Position numbers and translations under genes: made by a program. The notes beneath the pieces were generated by a model. The model saw nothing but the letters and a program-made list of their open reading frames with translations, was not told the origin of the DNA and did no database searches. Of a DNA stretch of 40,644 bases, positions 5,834-39,460 are shown piece by piece (positions within the stretch are counted from its first letter, which is position 1; the number at the start of each line of letters is the position of its first letter). This DNA is from a virus, in the IMG/VR virus record IMGVR_UViG_3300021959_000113, positions 1 to 40,644 of that record, one strand, 5' to 3'.

Positions 5834-6189
5834 TATGAAATCCCTTTAAGGTTTTCCAGAAAAAATTTATATTCACTCACCACCTTCAAGCCAGATCCAA
5901 GAGCAGAATCATATAAAGCAGAAACTCTCAAGAATCTTGGCGCAGAAGCAAGCTTTCGTTCATGTTTTTGAATTGTCATACTTGATCCCGATATAACAAT
6001 ATCAATAGACTCTGCTGAAGTTGGCGCAGAAGGAGCTGATGCCAGAACCTCACCATCTTTATCATAGAGTCCCCAGTCAATGCTTCCTGAGTTAGGCGTG
6101 AATGCATTACCATGCTCATCTATAAAATCAACAGTCATGGCGAAAGTGTTTTCCTCTTTCGCTATTTCATCAAGAAGCATTACTGGCAT
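5833..6189 (-). CDS. Small beta-rich structural protein, unknown
   Basis: The protein has 118 residues. It starts with LLDEIAKEENTFAMTVDFID and continues with alternating strands (DWGLYDKDGEVLASAP, IDIVISGSSMTIQKHER, RFLRVSALYDS). The pattern fits a single immunoglobulin-like or jelly-roll domain of the kind found as small tail or decoration proteins. It is followed directly by the tail-hub-like gene with stop and start overlapping (TAATG). No family name can be given. Confidence 0.75.
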   Translation of the reverse strand: MPVMLLDEIAKEENTFAMTVDFIDEHGNAFTPNSGSIDWGLYDKDGEVLASAPSAPTSAESIDIVISGSSMTIQKHERKLASAPRFLRVSALYDSALGSGLKVVSEYKFFLENLKGIS

Positions 6190-6199
6190 AATCTACTCC

Positions 6200-6595
6200 T
6201 TAAGCCGGATCACGACTTGTGTAGTCCCAAGCAGGAACTGTCAAGTCTTCTGCGATCGCGACTGTGATAGGCGAACTTGTATCCGTAACAAGGACGTGTG
6301 AATCTGAGTCGTTTGAGTCGACTAGAACAATTTGTTCTACATCTCCGGCAGCATCGATAGCAACTACTGTATCTGGAGTAATGGTGATCTTACGACCATC
6401 TGTATCTCCATTGGCTTTTGCGGAAAGTGTTACGTTCACGCCAACTGAGCTCAATACAGACGCATCTGCTATTGCTGTTGTGCCTGGAACGAAAGCACTA
6501 GTCGCTACATAAAGCTTAAGTCCGTTAGATCCATTAAGCGTAATGAGGTGGTCTAGTAATGCATCTAATGCATCGTCAAGTAAAAATTTAGCCAT
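6200..6595 (-). CDS. Structural protein of unknown family
   Basis: The protein has 131 residues and starts with an amphipathic helix (FLLDDALDALLDHLITL). A beta-rich domain full of Thr, Val and Asp follows (DGRKITITPDTVVAIDAAG, VEQIVLVDSNDSDSHVLV). It lies in the tail gene block, 12 bases after the repeat-built gene. Similar short proteins often sit beside tail proteins in marine phages, but no named family is claimed. Confidence 0.75.
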   Translation of the reverse strand: MAKFLLDDALDALLDHLITLNGSNGLKLYVATSAFVPGTTAIADASVLSSVGVNVTLSAKANGDTDGRKITITPDTVVAIDAAGDVEQIVLVDSNDSDSHVLVTDTSSPITVAIAEDLTVPAWDYTSRDPA

Positions 6596-6607
6596 TCTAT
6601 TCTCCTA

Positions 6608-7759
6608 TTATTTATAGATTGTTGATTTATCAATACTTGGATAAATTCTTGTAAAGTTAATTTTACCATAATGGAAGGTAGTTACTTTTACATTGGTATT
6701 TTCGATATTATTTGAATTATATATTGATTCTACTAATAAAGATTCTTTAATGCTAGCATCTGTGGTATCCATAAAATTAAAATTCTGCATATTCAGATTT
6801 AATTCAAAAGGGTCTGGTTGCAGGAACTTTCGAGGTAATACGCTTTCAATCTCGTTCGTATTCTCAACATTATTTAATTCAAGAGAAAATACTAATTCTT
6901 CTATTTCGTTTGAGCTTTCAACAGAGTCAACTTGGCAAAAAGATAGGGTACCTATCTCATTTTGATTCTGAGAGTCTTCACTAAGCTTTGTATATACAGA
7001 TGTATTTTCTGTTTCGTTCGAGTTTTCAATGTCATCTACTTGGCAGAGAACTAAGGTATTTACTTCATTGTTGTTTTCAGAGTTTTCTGGAACAACTGCT
7101 GCAACCTTTATACCGCCTAAACCTTCAGGGTTAGTCCCTATAGAAGATGCACCACCAGAGCTAATATCCAAAAGTGTATCTAAATCAAGCTCAAAGATCT
7201 TGTCAACAGTGAAATCAAGCGCATAAAGCCTGTCATTTGTACCACCTATGCCATGTGGTCTTGTAGATGGGCTAACTACGCTATTTATCTCAAGTAGTGT
7301 ATCAGGATCAAGCTCATTATGCCTACCTTGAGAAAGACTGAAAAGACGTGTGGAGAATACCCTATCTTCAGTGCCGCCTATTGCGTCAGTATACCCAGTC
7401 CCAGAACCTACACCACCAGAACTTAAGTCGAGTAGTGTGTCGGGGTCAAGCTCATAATACTTATCATCAGTGGAGTCGGAACTGTAAAGCCTTGTATTTG
7501 TGCCGCCAATGCCTTCTGGATTAGCTGCTATAGCAGCAACACCACCAGCTGTGATATCAAGAAAAGTATCTAAATCAAGCTCATAATACTTGTCTGTAGC
7601 AGCATCGCAATGATATAAGCGTTGTTCAATTCCGCCAACACCATAAGGATTAGTTCCAGGACTAGAAACACCCCCTGATGAAATATCTAAGCGTGTGTCA
7701 AGGTCAAGCTCATAGATTTTATCTGTAGTAGCATCGCAATGATAAAGTCTATTAACCAT
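6608..7759 (-). CDS. Repeat protein: five 43-residue blades plus 18-residue repeats
   Basis: The protein has 383 residues with two kinds of internal repeat. Residues about 3-217 are five tandem copies of a ~43-residue unit with consensus RLYxxDxxTDKxYELDLDT then LLDISSGGV then NPxGIGGT, the look of beta-propeller blades. Residues about 220-310 are tandem 18-residue units built on ENxNEIxxLxF, which suggest a beta-solenoid stalk. It sits among tail genes, so a receptor- or glycan-binding appendage is likely. Binding function is inferred and the fold is not proven. The blades are similar enough to suggest recent duplication. Confidence 0.8.
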   Translation of the reverse strand: MVNRLYHCDATTDKIYELDLDTRLDISSGGVSSPGTNPYGVGGIEQRLYHCDAATDKYYELDLDTFLDITAGGVAAIAANPEGIGGTNTRLYSSDSTDDKYYELDPDTLLDLSSGGVGSGTGYTDAIGGTEDRVFSTRLFSLSQGRHNELDPDTLLEINSVVSPSTRPHGIGGTNDRLYALDFTVDKIFELDLDTLLDISSGGASSIGTNPEGLGGIKVAAVVPENSENNNEVNTLVLCQVDDIENSNETENTSVYTKLSEDSQNQNEIGTLSFCQVDSVESSNEIEELVFSLELNNVENTNEIESVLPRKFLQPDPFELNLNMQNFNFMDTTDASIKESLLVESIYNSNNIENTNVKVTTFHYGKINFTRIYPSIDKSTIYK

Positions 7760-8131: not shown

Positions 8132-8470
8132 TCACCTCGTCAATTCATCATATTGGGATTTGTGGATATTCGCTCTATTCAAGTTTTCCGTATCGGCATC
8201 ATCTTCAGACAATGCTTTAAATACTATGAAAGATGCGAGTTTGTCAGAGATCCTATCTTCTAGGAGAGTTTCTGTACTAAGGCTTACCACGACAACAAGA
8301 TCTTGAAGGGATCCTGCTGAGTCTAGCCAGAACTCAGGACGTTTATGCCTAAGATCATATTGAGCTTCATTCAAATACTTGATTAGCTGAGCGTCAGACC
8401 ATCTATAGCCTGTGCTCTCCGTATCGTGAAGTATTCTTCGAGCTTCTTTAATTGGTACTGAAGAGATCAT
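8132..8470 (-). CDS. Head-tail connector/adaptor-like protein
   Basis: The protein has 112 residues. The N-terminal pattern (ARRILHDTESTGYRWSDAQLIKYLNEAQYDLRH) is the typical opening of small phage adaptor proteins found after capsid genes: a helix, then Trp-Ser-Asp, then a helix ending LNEAQ. The C-terminus is helical (DKLASFIVFKALSEDDAD). It overlaps the preceding connector-like gene by four bases (ATGA). Probably part of the ring below the portal. DUF6682-like membership is a guess from pattern. Confidence 0.75.
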   Translation of the reverse strand: MISSVPIKEARRILHDTESTGYRWSDAQLIKYLNEAQYDLRHKRPEFWLDSAGSLQDLVVVVSLSTETLLEDRISDKLASFIVFKALSEDDADTENLNRANIHKSQYDELTR

Positions 8471-23091: not shown

Positions 23092-23315
23092 CGGACTCAT
23101 TTGAATACATGACCAATAAGGCCTTTGTTGGCTTCAAGTTGAATAATCTAAGCTACAAGAATGAAGCTTACTTTGATAACCATAAAAAAATTAACCACTT
23201 GACGGTCCTTGACTCTGTGTCTTTAGAAGAGCATCTCCTTTATGGCGGGAGAAAGTGCGGATGGTTTAAGAAGAATTGTGAAGCCATTGACAGACGTTAT
23301 AGGAGATTCGCATGA
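23088..23315 (+). CDS. Small hypothetical protein
   Basis: The protein has 75 residues (YMTNKAFVGFKLNNLSYKN, GGRKCGWFKKNCEAIDRRY), with a basic C-terminus. Start and stop both overlap neighbours (ATGA). No family is recognised. Confidence 0.6.
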   Translation: MTDSFEYMTNKAFVGFKLNNLSYKNEAYFDNHKKINHLTVLDSVSLEEHLLYGGRKCGWFKKNCEAIDRRYRRFA

Positions 23316-23428
23316 TCGACGTGGCGATTTATCTCACTGGCTGCTCTGGCTGCGCTCTACTCGGCTTCTTGGCTGCTCCTGCATCTGAGAAAGTGGAATT
23401 CATCAATCTAATCATGAGGAGGAAGTAA
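23312..23428 (+). CDS. 38-residue membrane peptide
   Basis: MIDVAIYLTGCSGCALLGF then LAAPASEKVEFINLIMRRK: one short hydrophobic helix followed by an amphipathic basic end. AGGAGATTCGC precedes the start; the stop overlaps the next ATG. It is similar in layout to the peptide at 20843-20959 but not in sequence. Confidence 0.55.
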   Translation: MIDVAIYLTGCSGCALLGFLAAPASEKVEFINLIMRRK

Positions 23429-25811: not shown

Positions 25812-26636
25812 ATGAATGCTATTGCACACATGCCAACCACCACAGAAATGTCCAGTCTCGAAATTGCAGAACGCACAGGCAAAGAACATAAAAATGTAAC
25901 AAGAGATATTGAAACAATGTTTCTTGAGCTTGAAATAGATAGGCTCAAATTTGAGCGCATCTACAAGGACAGCCTAAATCGTGACCAAAAATGCTACAAC
26001 CTGGACAAAGACCTGACGCTCTGCCTCATCTCCAAGTACGACACTAAAACGCGCATGGCGATAATTAAGAGATGGAGGGAGGTAGAAGAAGCCGGGCAAG
26101 AGCTAGCCAGAGCGATCGAGCAAGCTGACCCAGTTATCCTAAGAAAAATGGCGGATATGTCCGAAGAGCTGAATAACCTAAAGAATCCAACTCGACAAGT
26201 CGTAGACCAAGCAATCCTCACAGAAGATCACTTCTTGTACTTCAAATCAATAAGTATGCTCAGTAAATTTTTCAAGAGAACAAGGAATGTCATCGAGTCA
26301 GTAGTCAAGACAAACCAGATTGACTACATCAAGAGAATCAATAACGGCTATGAGTACCTTGCCTATGACGAGCGACAAATACAGCCTCTTATTCCTGCGA
26401 AAGCAAAGAAGTACACTTACAGCCCTGATATTGTAAAAGTTCCCTCCGTTAGAGAAACTATCATTGCAGAGCTTGAAGAAGACTGGAGCTTTATTCTGGA
26501 GAAAGATTCTAGGCTATGCGCTCTTGCTGATTATTTTAATTGTAGTGGGAAGACTATTCGTAGAGCTGTAAAGGAGATGCCCGACTTTTACATAGAAAAT
26601 TCTAATGTTTGTAGACGGGCCGGAATAACTAAGTAA
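25812..26636 (+). CDS. Rha-family phage regulatory protein
   Basis: The protein has 274 residues from ATG 25812, with AAGGAT upstream. The open frame extends 59 codons further but into a structured leader with no good start. Residues about 10-95 are the Rha domain (MSSLEIAERTGKEHKNVTRD, then YNLDKDLTLCLISKYDTKTR, MAIIKRWREVE), known from phages as a regulator that interferes with growth in some hosts. The C-terminal part holds helix-turn-helix-like segments (CALADYFNCSGKTIRRAVKE). Confident family call; the target is unknown. Confidence 0.85.
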   Translation: MNAIAHMPTTTEMSSLEIAERTGKEHKNVTRDIETMFLELEIDRLKFERIYKDSLNRDQKCYNLDKDLTLCLISKYDTKTRMAIIKRWREVEEAGQELARAIEQADPVILRKMADMSEELNNLKNPTRQVVDQAILTEDHFLYFKSISMLSKFFKRTRNVIESVVKTNQIDYIKRINNGYEYLAYDERQIQPLIPAKAKKYTYSPDIVKVPSVRETIIAELEEDWSFILEKDSRLCALADYFNCSGKTIRRAVKEMPDFYIENSNVCRRAGITK

Positions 26637-26648
26637 AAATTATCATGG

Positions 26649-26664
26649 GGCTACTGCAATAGCC
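26649..26664 (+). promoter_or_regulatory. Hairpin with CTGCAA loop after the Rha gene
   Basis: GGCTA / TAGCC, extendable to seven pairs with one G-U on the rightward RNA, encloses the loop CTGCAA. It is the third hairpin in the window with this loop. It lies 13 bases after the Rha stop. Confidence 0.4.
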
Positions 26665-26674
26665 TCAATAAAAA

Positions 26675-26700
26675 AGCCCTTGATTTCAGAATCAAGGGCT
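26675..26700 (-). terminator. Rho-independent terminator for the leftward 101-residue gene
   Basis: A perfect 11-bp stem (AGCCCTTGATT / AATCAAGGGCT) with a 4-base loop. On the leftward RNA it is followed by TTTTTTA. On the rightward RNA there is no U-tract, so it primarily serves the leftward gene. Confidence 0.8.
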
Positions 26701-26714
26701 AGGAATACATTGAA

Positions 26715-27020
26715 TTAACTATGCAATAGCTTTAGCTCGATTATTTCAAACTGAGCTTCAATCAGCTGATCAAGATACACGTTTTTGTCGTGAGTTGCAG
26801 CATTTAAGGATTTTTTAAGCTTTGAGATATCTTTTCCAATTTCGTCATATTTTGCTGATGTTTCATTTTGAGTTTCAATTGAAAGCTCTCCGAGATCAGT
26901 GATACTCTTGCAGATAGCGGCAGCATCTTCTTCTGTGAGCGTTCTTCCCTTATGTCCTTTAATGGCTTCTGATATTTCTCTGACTTGGGTTTTGACAAGT
27001 TCTTCATAACTATCTCCCAT
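26715..27020 (-). CDS. Small coiled-coil protein, isolated leftward gene
   Basis: The protein has 101 residues and is all helical (VKTQVREISEAIKGHKG, DEIGKDISKLKKSLNAATHD, LDQLIEAQFEIIELKLL). It is the only leftward gene between 19.9 and 27.6 kb, with its own terminator 15 bases downstream and a candidate promoter upstream. Such single opposed genes in phages are often expressed in the lysogen. No family is recognised. Confidence 0.65.
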   Translation of the reverse strand: MGDSYEELVKTQVREISEAIKGHKGRTLTEEDAAAICKSITDLGELSIETQNETSAKYDEIGKDISKLKKSLNAATHDKNVYLDQLIEAQFEIIELKLLHS

Positions 27021-27076
27021 TTTTCCAATTTCCTATTTATATTCTCATTATCCATGCCACATCTTCGGCAAAAATA

Positions 27077-27106
27077 AGAGTATGTCTTTATGTTAAAATA
27101 CTTCAA
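27077..27106 (-). promoter_or_regulatory. Candidate promoter of the isolated leftward gene
   Basis: Reading leftwards, TTGAAG (27106-27101), 18 bases, then TACTCT (27082-27077), about 60 bases before the start codon. The remaining 27107-27281 is AT-rich and otherwise holds only the first GCGTACA site. Confidence 0.35.
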
Positions 27107-27281
27107 AAAATTTACACATGCAAACTTTACAAGTTTAAACATGTTGTAATCGAATGTACCGCGTACACACGTTTTTGCAAACCATCAAGTGAAACTATAA
27201 ATTCAAAAAAACATCATTATTGAATTGGATAAACAAAAAAAATACCATCTAATAAATAATAGTTAGTCGGAGGTAACATAA

Positions 27282-27329
27282 ATGTCCCCTACCCCCTGTT
27301 ATACTAGGGTGAGTAAAAAAAGTAAATAA
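27282..27329 (+). CDS. Possible 15-residue peptide with strong RBS
   Basis: GGAGG lies eight bases before an ATG encoding MSPTPCYTRVSKKSK. The stop is 12 bases before the next small frame. It could be a leader peptide or chance. Included because the ribosome binding site is among the best in the region. Confidence 0.3.
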   Translation: MSPTPCYTRVSKKSK

Positions 27330-27341
27330 AGGGAAGATCAC

Positions 27342-27491
27342 ATGGAAGTATTAAAGTTAGAGGATTTCAGATCACTAGAAAAGCTAATGCTCACTGAGAG
27401 CGTACAGAATGCGTACAGTTTAAGCACAAAGTGTACGCAAGAAGGCGTACAAAGACGCGTACAGTCAAAAGATGAATATAGTCATAAATAA
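27342..27491 (+). CDS. Possible 49-residue protein overlapping the repeat field
   Basis: ATG 27342 is preceded by AAGGGA. The product starts MEVLKLEDFRSLEKLMLTES, and the rest is encoded by the GCGTACA repeats (VQNAYS, EGVQRRVQS). It could be a small recombination directionality factor, the usual partner of an integrase, or a frame that is open by chance. No family is recognised. Confidence 0.35.
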   Translation: MEVLKLEDFRSLEKLMLTESVQNAYSLSTKCTQEGVQRRVQSKDEYSHK

Positions 27492-27625
27492 TTAATCTAT
27501 AATGTATTATGATTATATTTTAATGGTGGGACGACAGTTAGAAAGGCTTTGTGACATCGTTAATAGAGAAACACTTACGAATATAGTGTATGATTATGCG
27601 TACAGAATGCGTACAAAAAGAGTGA

Positions 27626-29098
27626 CTACTGGCGTACAATTACCGCTTCATCGATATACTTCACTTTTGCTTCATCACCTGACAGAGTAACATGCAGCTC
27701 CTTCGCTGTTAGGTGGCCGTAATGCTCCATAAAGACTTCTCGCTTATTTCTTGTCAGAGCGCAAGCCTCATCAATGCTATAACCATTCCGAATCAGTAGA
27801 GATCCAAAAGTATGGCGAAGATCACGAGCCTTTATTTTATTAGCCAGTATAGGCTTTGTGAAAGTATCTTCTTTTCCTTCATGGCTATACCTTCTGCCAT
27901 TCAGCTTTCGTGAAAGAGCATCATTGGTCCACAGCTCTTTTTTGGAGTTGGGTTTCGCGAAAAAATATTTTTCTCCAACATGACCATCTTCAATAAACTT
28001 GAGCAAATGTGGAAGTAAATACTTAGCATCCACTGGCACAGAATCGCTTCTATTTTTCGTTTTAAGTCCTCGTTCATCATGCCATTCGATTTTCAGAAAA
28101 TAAACTTCCGCTTTTTGGTCGTTGATCTGCTTAGTTGCTTTTGTGAAGTCATCCACACGAATACCAGATAATTCTTTTAGACCGATCCCGGCATAGGCCA
28201 TTGTCGCAACGATCGCGCTCCAGTAAGAGTCAAGACCCAATAACATGTCCTCGATGACATTTAGATCATGCCAGATTATTTTTTTCTTCTTGGTAATTTT
28301 TTTCTTAAGGAGAACTAGGCCTGTAATGGGATTCTGGAACTCGTACCGATCAGCAGCCCATGTAAAAAATACTGAGAGCATTGAACGAACTCTTTTTTTT
28401 CGGTATTCTGGATCCGGAGATTTTTTTGCAAGCTCCATGATAAAGTCTTTGATCTGTGCCTTGCTGACTTCTGCCGGAGAAATGTCGTCTGGAATTTTTT
28501 TTGCGAATCTTCTATTCATTGATAATATATCAACGCAAGTGCTATAAGAAACTGTATCTCGATACTCTAACTCGAACTTATCAATACACTCGGAAAGAGT
28601 GCCTGTGTCATTGGCTGCATTGATCTGCTTGGCTATTACTGAGCGCTTAAGGTCTTCATACCCCTTAACCTCTTCAATGAGCTTCTGAATTGTCTTTCCG
28701 CGTTCATCGTGGCTGACCAGGAGTTTAGGGATCTTCACCATGATTCTAGTAAAAGTTTCTGCCAGACTTTCGTCTATGCCTTCAACGACATCGAGAATTT
28801 TATCTAATGCAATAATTTCTTTTTTCGTGAAAATTTCTTCAGTAAGATTTGTCTTAAGAGTAATCTTTGATTTTTCTTTATTGAAATAAGCCTTGTATAT
28901 TCGCTCATCAACAGCCAAGGCAATATCATCATCTTGGCTCAAACCTACTATTCGCGTATACTCATCAATCAAAGACTGAGCAATGTCCCTATCTGACTCG
29001 CCAGTCATAACTTGCTTTCGTTTTCCATCCACGTTATAGATGTGGAAGGAGTACTTGCTTCGCCCTTTTTCTAAATTAAGCCTTGGTTTCTTTCTCAC
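27626..29098 (-). CDS. int: Tyrosine recombinase/integrase, divergent active site
   Basis: The protein has 490 residues, with a likely GTG start at 29098 overlapping the upstream stop. Expected role: recombination between attP and the host site. N-terminal arm-binding-like part (KSKYSFHIYNVDGKRKQVMTG is phage-integrase style; first residues vary), core-binding SAM-like part near 165-255, catalytic part 275-490. The second box is RDLRHTFGSLL (R425, R428) and the likely nucleophile is Tyr460 in MEHYGHL. Lys346/348 fits the beta-hairpin lysine. The first catalytic Arg is expected in AYAGIGLKELSGIR (302-314) where Gly306 stands, and box II starts with Arg instead of His. So the enzyme is divergent or impaired. 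Confidence 0.85.
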   Translation of the reverse strand: MRKKPRLNLEKGRSKYSFHIYNVDGKRKQVMTGESDRDIAQSLIDEYTRIVGLSQDDDIALAVDERIYKAYFNKEKSKITLKTNLTEEIFTKKEIIALDKILDVVEGIDESLAETFTRIMVKIPKLLVSHDERGKTIQKLIEEVKGYEDLKRSVIAKQINAANDTGTLSECIDKFELEYRDTVSYSTCVDILSMNRRFAKKIPDDISPAEVSKAQIKDFIMELAKKSPDPEYRKKRVRSMLSVFFTWAADRYEFQNPITGLVLLKKKITKKKKIIWHDLNVIEDMLLGLDSYWSAIVATMAYAGIGLKELSGIRVDDFTKATKQINDQKAEVYFLKIEWHDERGLKTKNRSDSVPVDAKYLLPHLLKFIEDGHVGEKYFFAKPNSKKELWTNDALSRKLNGRRYSHEGKEDTFTKPILANKIKARDLRHTFGSLLIRNGYSIDEACALTRNKREVFMEHYGHLTAKELHVTLSGDEAKVKYIDEAVIVRQ

Positions 29099-29580
29099 AC
29101 AAACTGTTCACTCAGCACTTGAGAAACAAATGCAGCGAATATAGGAAAGTCATTTGCGCTTAGTGTAAAAAAATCTTCTTCCGAGTAGTCGGCCTCCATC
29201 CACTCAGCGAGCTTTATAATAGGTATGTTGAATTTATTCCTCATGTCTTCATAAGATAATTTATTGTCATCTTTATATTTTTGAATGTTGCTTATGATAT
29301 TCACATCCATTCGACAGTGCGCAGCAGTCTGGTCAGTAAATGTAGATGTTTTTCTTTTCATTGATTTTTGAAGCTCTTCTGGATCTCTGTATTTATTAAT
29401 ATAAGGCTCAAGAGCCATCATCAACTTAGGCCTTATTGTTTTAGTCATGCCCGTCAAAACATTCCCAATACTTCCATGACTTGTCCCTATTAATTTCCCT
29501 GCTTCGCGAAGAGTCAGTTGCTCTTCAGTTAGCCATTGCTGTATGGCGGCTTTAAAATCTTCTGTAACCCTAGTCAACAT
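29095..29580 (-). CDS. Helix-turn-helix protein, candidate repressor
   Basis: The protein has 161 residues. Residues about 20-60 (LTLREAGKLIGTSHGSIGNV, then LTGMTKTIRPKLMMAL) look like an XRE-type helix-turn-helix, and a second helical domain follows (YEDMRNKFNIPIIKLAEWME). It is the first gene of a leftward unit with the integrase, driven by a near-consensus promoter opposite a Cro-like gene. It is therefore the likely lysogeny regulator. No protease-type CI C-terminus is present. Confidence 0.72.
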   Translation of the reverse strand: MLTRVTEDFKAAIQQWLTEEQLTLREAGKLIGTSHGSIGNVLTGMTKTIRPKLMMALEPYINKYRDPEELQKSMKRKTSTFTDQTAAHCRMDVNIISNIQKYKDDNKLSYEDMRNKFNIPIIKLAEWMEADYSEEDFFTLSANDFPIFAAFVSQVLSEQFV

Positions 29581-39377: not shown

Positions 39378-39460
39378 TGTCGCCAGAAGAACAACTAGTA
39401 ATTCTCGTCATCGTGTACGCTCTTGCAAGCGGTCTGCTCGATGACGTGCATTTAGGATAA
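39377..39460 (+). CDS. Possible 27-residue hydrophobic peptide
   Basis: The ATG overlaps the resolvase stop (TAATG); product MSPEEQLVILVIVYALASG then LLDDVHLG. A single hydrophobic helix. No ribosome binding site is seen, so it depends on coupling and may not be a gene. Confidence 0.35.
   Translation: MSPEEQLVILVIVYALASGLLDDVHLG

Follow-up and report, generated by a model that had tools for sequence, protein, structure and literature searches.

The heptamer GCGTACA, present in nine exact copies next to the 3' end of a tyrosine recombinase gene (int), very probably forms the arm-type binding sites of a lambda-like phage attachment site (attP). This reading is drawn from sequence comparison. 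The stretch of DNA that was analysed, here called the window, is a single IMG/VR virus record of 40,644 bases that encodes a terminase, a portal/head-tail adaptor, a major head protein, an internal virion protein, a Sak4-like annealing protein, a primase and a helicase, with a RadC gene nearby. A preliminary description had suggested a putative attP at this place, and the suggestion is supported by a related phage, L004, in which an array of the same geometry surrounds the 3' half of a tRNA-Arg gene. It is this conserved geometry, together with the tRNA half, that makes attP arm sites the best reading of the window array.

The repeat array and its neighbouring genes

A motif scan of the window located nine GCGTACA copies at 27161-27638, as the preliminary description had reported. 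They start at 27161, 27400, 27411, 27432, 27445, 27457, 27598, 27609 and 27632; the copy at 27432 is inverted (minus strand) and the other eight are direct. A tenth copy, at 39414 on the minus strand, is distant from the array. Exact repetition of the paired unit is confirmed by the 18-mer GCGTACAGAATGCGTACA, of which the window has exactly two occurrences (27400 and 27598). The features discussed below are as follows.

27161..27167 (+): outlying GCGTACA copy, an exact match; possible distal arm site, role uncertain
27342..27491 (+): ORF of 49 aa converging on int; its 3' part contains the int-distal arm cluster, and its coding status is uncertain
27400..27463 (no strand): putative int-distal arm cluster of five copies (27400, 27411, 27432 inverted, 27445, 27457), with the paired unit GCGTACAGAATGCGTACA at 27400-27417
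27464..27597 (no strand): spacer of 134 bp between the arm clusters, where the attP core is expected; the equivalent L004 spacer carries the tRNA-Arg 3' half
27505..27546 (no strand): predicted attP core, mapped from the L004 core (8324-8365) by superposing the distal pairs
27598..27638 (+): putative int-proximal arm cluster of three copies (27598, 27609, 27632)
27626..29098 (-): int, 490-aa tyrosine recombinase/integrase (phrog_1, E 1.5e-27)
29095..29580 (-): gene for an HTH-like protein of 161 aa, with weak HTH/regulator matches; 63.5% identical to an L004 protein encoded in the same place

The density of copies is far above chance, as had been claimed: about 1.4 would be expected in the whole 40.6-kb window, in dinucleotide shuffles of which GCGTACA averaged 1.42 occurrences, never exceeded 5 and thus never reached 10. 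No one-mismatch copies were found in 26900-28000, and the motif is therefore held exactly. That the repeats are a functionless accumulation, arising by chance or from low complexity, is scarcely credible. Heptamers can cluster in AT-rich DNA, and simulations reached nine copies once in 100 when all 7-mers, poly-A types included, were counted; however, the mixed-composition GCGTACA was never enriched in shuffles, every copy of it is exact, and L004 has the same layout built from a differently spelled motif.

Successive copies are separated, start to start, by 239, 11, 21, 13, 12, 141, 11 and 23 bases, so that the array consists of two clusters (27400-27463 and 27598-27638) and one outlier 239 bp away. 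The spacing of 11-13 bases given in the preliminary description thus holds for some steps (11, 13, 12 and 11) and fails for those of 239, 21, 141 and 23. As to the placing of the copies next to and into the end of int, the int stop codon is at 27626-27628, and only the last copy (27632) lies within the gene, in its final codons, the remainder being outside. In phage lambda too, the array begins in the last int codons and continues downstream. The copies within the ORF at 27342-27491 lie in differing codon phases, and the repeated signal is therefore in the DNA rather than in a protein. Two elements of a lambda-type attP are in place: a tyrosine recombinase gene adjoins the array, and short repeated sites in two putative arms flank a 134-bp spacer.

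The assignment of int rests on a match to the phrog_1 integrase covering residues 133-469 (E 1.5e-27); matches to Pfam PF00589 and to the NCBIfam XerA-type model (2e-07) are both below cut-off. A 165-residue N-terminal region precedes the core-binding domain, and no Pfam match of the arm-binding type was found in the int N-terminus. An AlphaFold model of the integrase with two sequences was unusable (mean pLDDT 34). The HTH-like gene overlaps the start of int by four bases and has a promoter-like site ahead of it at 29673-29645; the two genes likely form one operon. A gene for a Rha-family regulatory protein (Pfam PF09669, E 5e-16) lies near the attP region at 25812-26636 (+).

A second assembly (G001, 47 kb) is collinear with the window across this region and contains the array unaltered, flanked left and right by phage genes; an attP that is not integrated would look like this. 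No further GCGTACA cluster was found in the remaining 33 kb examined of this assembly. Over 13.5 kb, the differences between the two sequences are concentrated in two short stretches, 28136-28180 (inside int) and 23292-23394.

A related phage with the same layout

A search of viral contigs with the integrase retrieved only one other phage, L004 (IMGVR_UViG_3300038701_003149, a 56.5 kb contig), whose integrase, at 5995-7464, is about 56-59% identical to that of the window. The two phages also share their major head protein (79% identity), internal virion protein (76%), primase (71%) and HTH protein (63.5%). No integrase relatives besides L004 were found among viral contigs, GTDB contigs and phage or plasmid records; 299 genomes yielded a single weak partial match, and among 25 loci carrying relatives of the nearby ATPase gene none had another integrase of this family.

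Downstream of its integrase, L004 has six direct copies of TGTGCCC, one with its first base changed, three on each side of CTCCGAAGCCGTAGGTCGCGCGTTCGAATCGCGCCGGGTGCA. The sequence CTCCGAAGCCGTAGGTCGCGCGTTCGAATCGCGCCGGGTGCA is the 3' half of a tRNA-Arg(CCG) gene, and complete genes containing almost the same half are found in marine Alphaproteobacteria, among others. ARAGORN found no complete tRNA in L004, which therefore has the 3' half alone, just as an attP core would. A tRNA 3' half bracketed by arm sites is the textbook hallmark of such a core. A perfect match to the IHF consensus lies just beside the half, at 8373; within one mismatch, the window has none in 27150-27660.

The two arrays, a comparison that rests on this one relative, agree in geometry and differ in spelling. 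In the orientation of int, the window arms carry TGTACGC and the L004 arms TGTGCCC; the paired units, TGTACGCATTCTGTACGC and TGTGCCCATTTTGTGCCC respectively, both have an 11-bp step, and the distance from pair to pair is 198 versus 199 bp. Superposing the distal pairs brings five of the six L004 sites to within 1 bp of a site in the window, a correspondence matched by 2 of 20,000 random placements. The sites in register are the 27400/27411 pair and the 27445 copy of the window, together with its 27598/27609 pair, which meets the L004 pair 8254/8265; L004 has nothing to match the window copies at 27161 (the outlier), 27432 (inverted) and 27457. Homology of the small attP-side ORFs of the two phages was considered and set aside as too weak (no BLASTP match; shuffle p about 0.04).

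This comparison bears on two other readings of the array. The first is that the repeats are operators or accessory-protein sites, bound by the HTH protein encoded before int or by an excisionase, rather than integrase arm sites. The HTH-like gene is indeed conserved together with int, and the copies at 27432 and 27445, which face each other, can fold into a hairpin that counts among the terminator-like sites of the int strand. However, the repeats are placed where two reading frames converge at their 3' ends, and not at promoters; most of them are direct, not palindromic; and the L004 sites bracket the tRNA half symmetrically, three per side. We consider this reading unlikely. The hairpin itself, at 27432-27451 on the int strand downstream of the gene, pairs 7 bp of the inverted copy with its neighbour (TGTACGC CTTCTT GCGTACA) and is terminator-like; it could affect the int transcript.

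The second holds that the array is an iteron-type replication origin with no relation to integration. Direct repeats in phase with the helix, next to AT-rich DNA (27474-27512, about 10% G+C), do resemble such an origin, but an origin would have no use for the tRNA half enclosed by the L004 array, and the window array abuts int whereas the replication genes begin about 2.5 kb away, at 30.2 kb. An origin is therefore very improbable.

For the attP reading, the following mechanism may be envisaged. In both arms, the N-terminal region of the integrase would grip TGTACGC (GCGTACA in complement), and the catalytic portion of the enzyme would act on the core that lies between the two arm clusters, near 27505-27546. 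With spacings of one or a few turns of the helix, the direct repeats would allow several integrase monomers to stack along the same side of the double helix and to bridge to the core. Integrase binding, cooperativity and recombination at the array are inferred here from lambda-type integrases.

The predicted core and the bacterial target

The position of the window core is a prediction from the L004 alignment; the mapped segment, 27505-27546, falls inside the spacer and overlaps a local rise in G+C. No tRNA was found in the window, and 26600-29200 gave no Rfam match. Since its core lacks a tRNA half, the target of the window phage is probably unlike the tRNA-Arg of L004.

The preliminary description had proposed that attB be sought in host genomes, and here the outcome was negative. 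The window core was compared with sets of 6, 398, 48, 78 and 248 genomes, some of them recurring, and with plasmids; the matches were at chance level or AT-rich, and no attB was found among them. An exact 18-mer search of the core in all viral contigs likewise returned only chance-level or AT-rich matches. One genomic match (E 0.0185, in genome G093) was considered as attB and rejected: it falls within a gene for a TPR/OGT-like glycosyltransferase, at the FNGGTT motif, did not recur when the order to which G093 belongs was searched, and is expected by chance over 398 genomes. In one frame, the predicted core (27519-27551, plus strand) reads FNGGTTVRKAL, which is similar to the NGGTT motif found in OGT-like glycosyltransferases. 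That attB lies in a gene of this kind is possible, but the searches lent it no support.

A search for the host of L004 with its tRNA-Arg half gave one match, with two mismatches, in 398 genomes. In eleven genome contigs, unrelated DNA takes the place of the 5' half next to the 3' half of tRNA-Arg(CCG); these joins look like att junctions of other elements at the same tRNA site.

Atypical catalytic residues and comparison with known attachment sites

The canonical catalytic set of tyrosine recombinases (R, K, H, R, H/W, Y) is incomplete in this integrase. An ungapped HMMER alignment to XerA places Gly306 at the Arg-I position of int and Arg425 at the His-II position, while Arg428 (Arg-II) is kept, as is Tyr460, 32 residues further. 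The H/W position, placed by spacing, is occupied by Asn451. The L004 integrase has the same residues at these positions, and so Arg-I, His-II and, by spacing, His/Trp-III are missing from both. These losses, the failed search for attB and the window sites unmatched in L004 weigh against the attP reading. That this integrase family is still capable of recombination is suggested by the tRNA half which L004 has picked up. We propose tentatively, as a possibility short of an even chance, an undescribed clade of integrases that is active despite lacking Arg-I, His-II and His/Trp-III, with an arm array expanded to 8-9 sites and a distance of 198 bp between its paired units, recognition that has diverged along with the integrase (TGTACGC versus TGTGCCC) and, in the window phage, a target other than a tRNA gene.

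The attP of lambda has five arm-type sites in its P and P' arms (PMC4880445). As in lambda, the window integrase gene reads towards the array, and direct short sites at near-helical-turn spacing flank the predicted core. The window differs in having nine sites (seven or eight clustered, plus the outlier) of another spelling, and in having no IHF-consensus match in its array.

Mycobacteriophage Pixie, with a 47-bp core at tRNA-Lys and an integrase related to other mycobacteriophage integrases, has six putative arm sites, one of them inverted (PMC3203893). It resembles the window in bearing a pair on one side, a larger set on the other and one inverted copy. Among Cluster K phages, arm sequences change while the layout stays (PMC3203893); arm spelling varies among phages with related integrases, as it does here.

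In ICEMlSym-R7A, attP contains five P/arm motifs in 283 bp, all of them reported to be needed for efficient integration (PMC11963761). Its length is similar and its arm motifs are likewise several and repeated, but the motif is TGKTGGTATC, the sites are fewer, and the element is integrative and conjugative rather than a phage.

The attP of L004 is alike in its five sites in register out of six, its pair-unit step, its nearly equal pair distance and its homologous HTH-int gene pair; it is unlike the window in its TGTGCCC spelling, its six copies, its tRNA-Arg core and an additional ORF of 180 aa that separates int from attP.

Set against five sites in lambda, five in ICEMlSym-R7A and six in Pixie, the eight or nine of the window bear out the earlier remark that this array is larger than most; it is ordinary in kind, with a site count on the high side. 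What is noteworthy is this high count, a paired-unit geometry conserved despite different arm spellings, and an integrase without several canonical catalytic residues, whose atypical active-site positions make it worth testing. The array provides a well-delimited predicted attP from an uncultured group of temperate phages. Furthermore, the window phage and L004, with the same layout and homologous integrases but different spelling and probably different targets, constitute a natural experiment on arm-site recognition and target choice.
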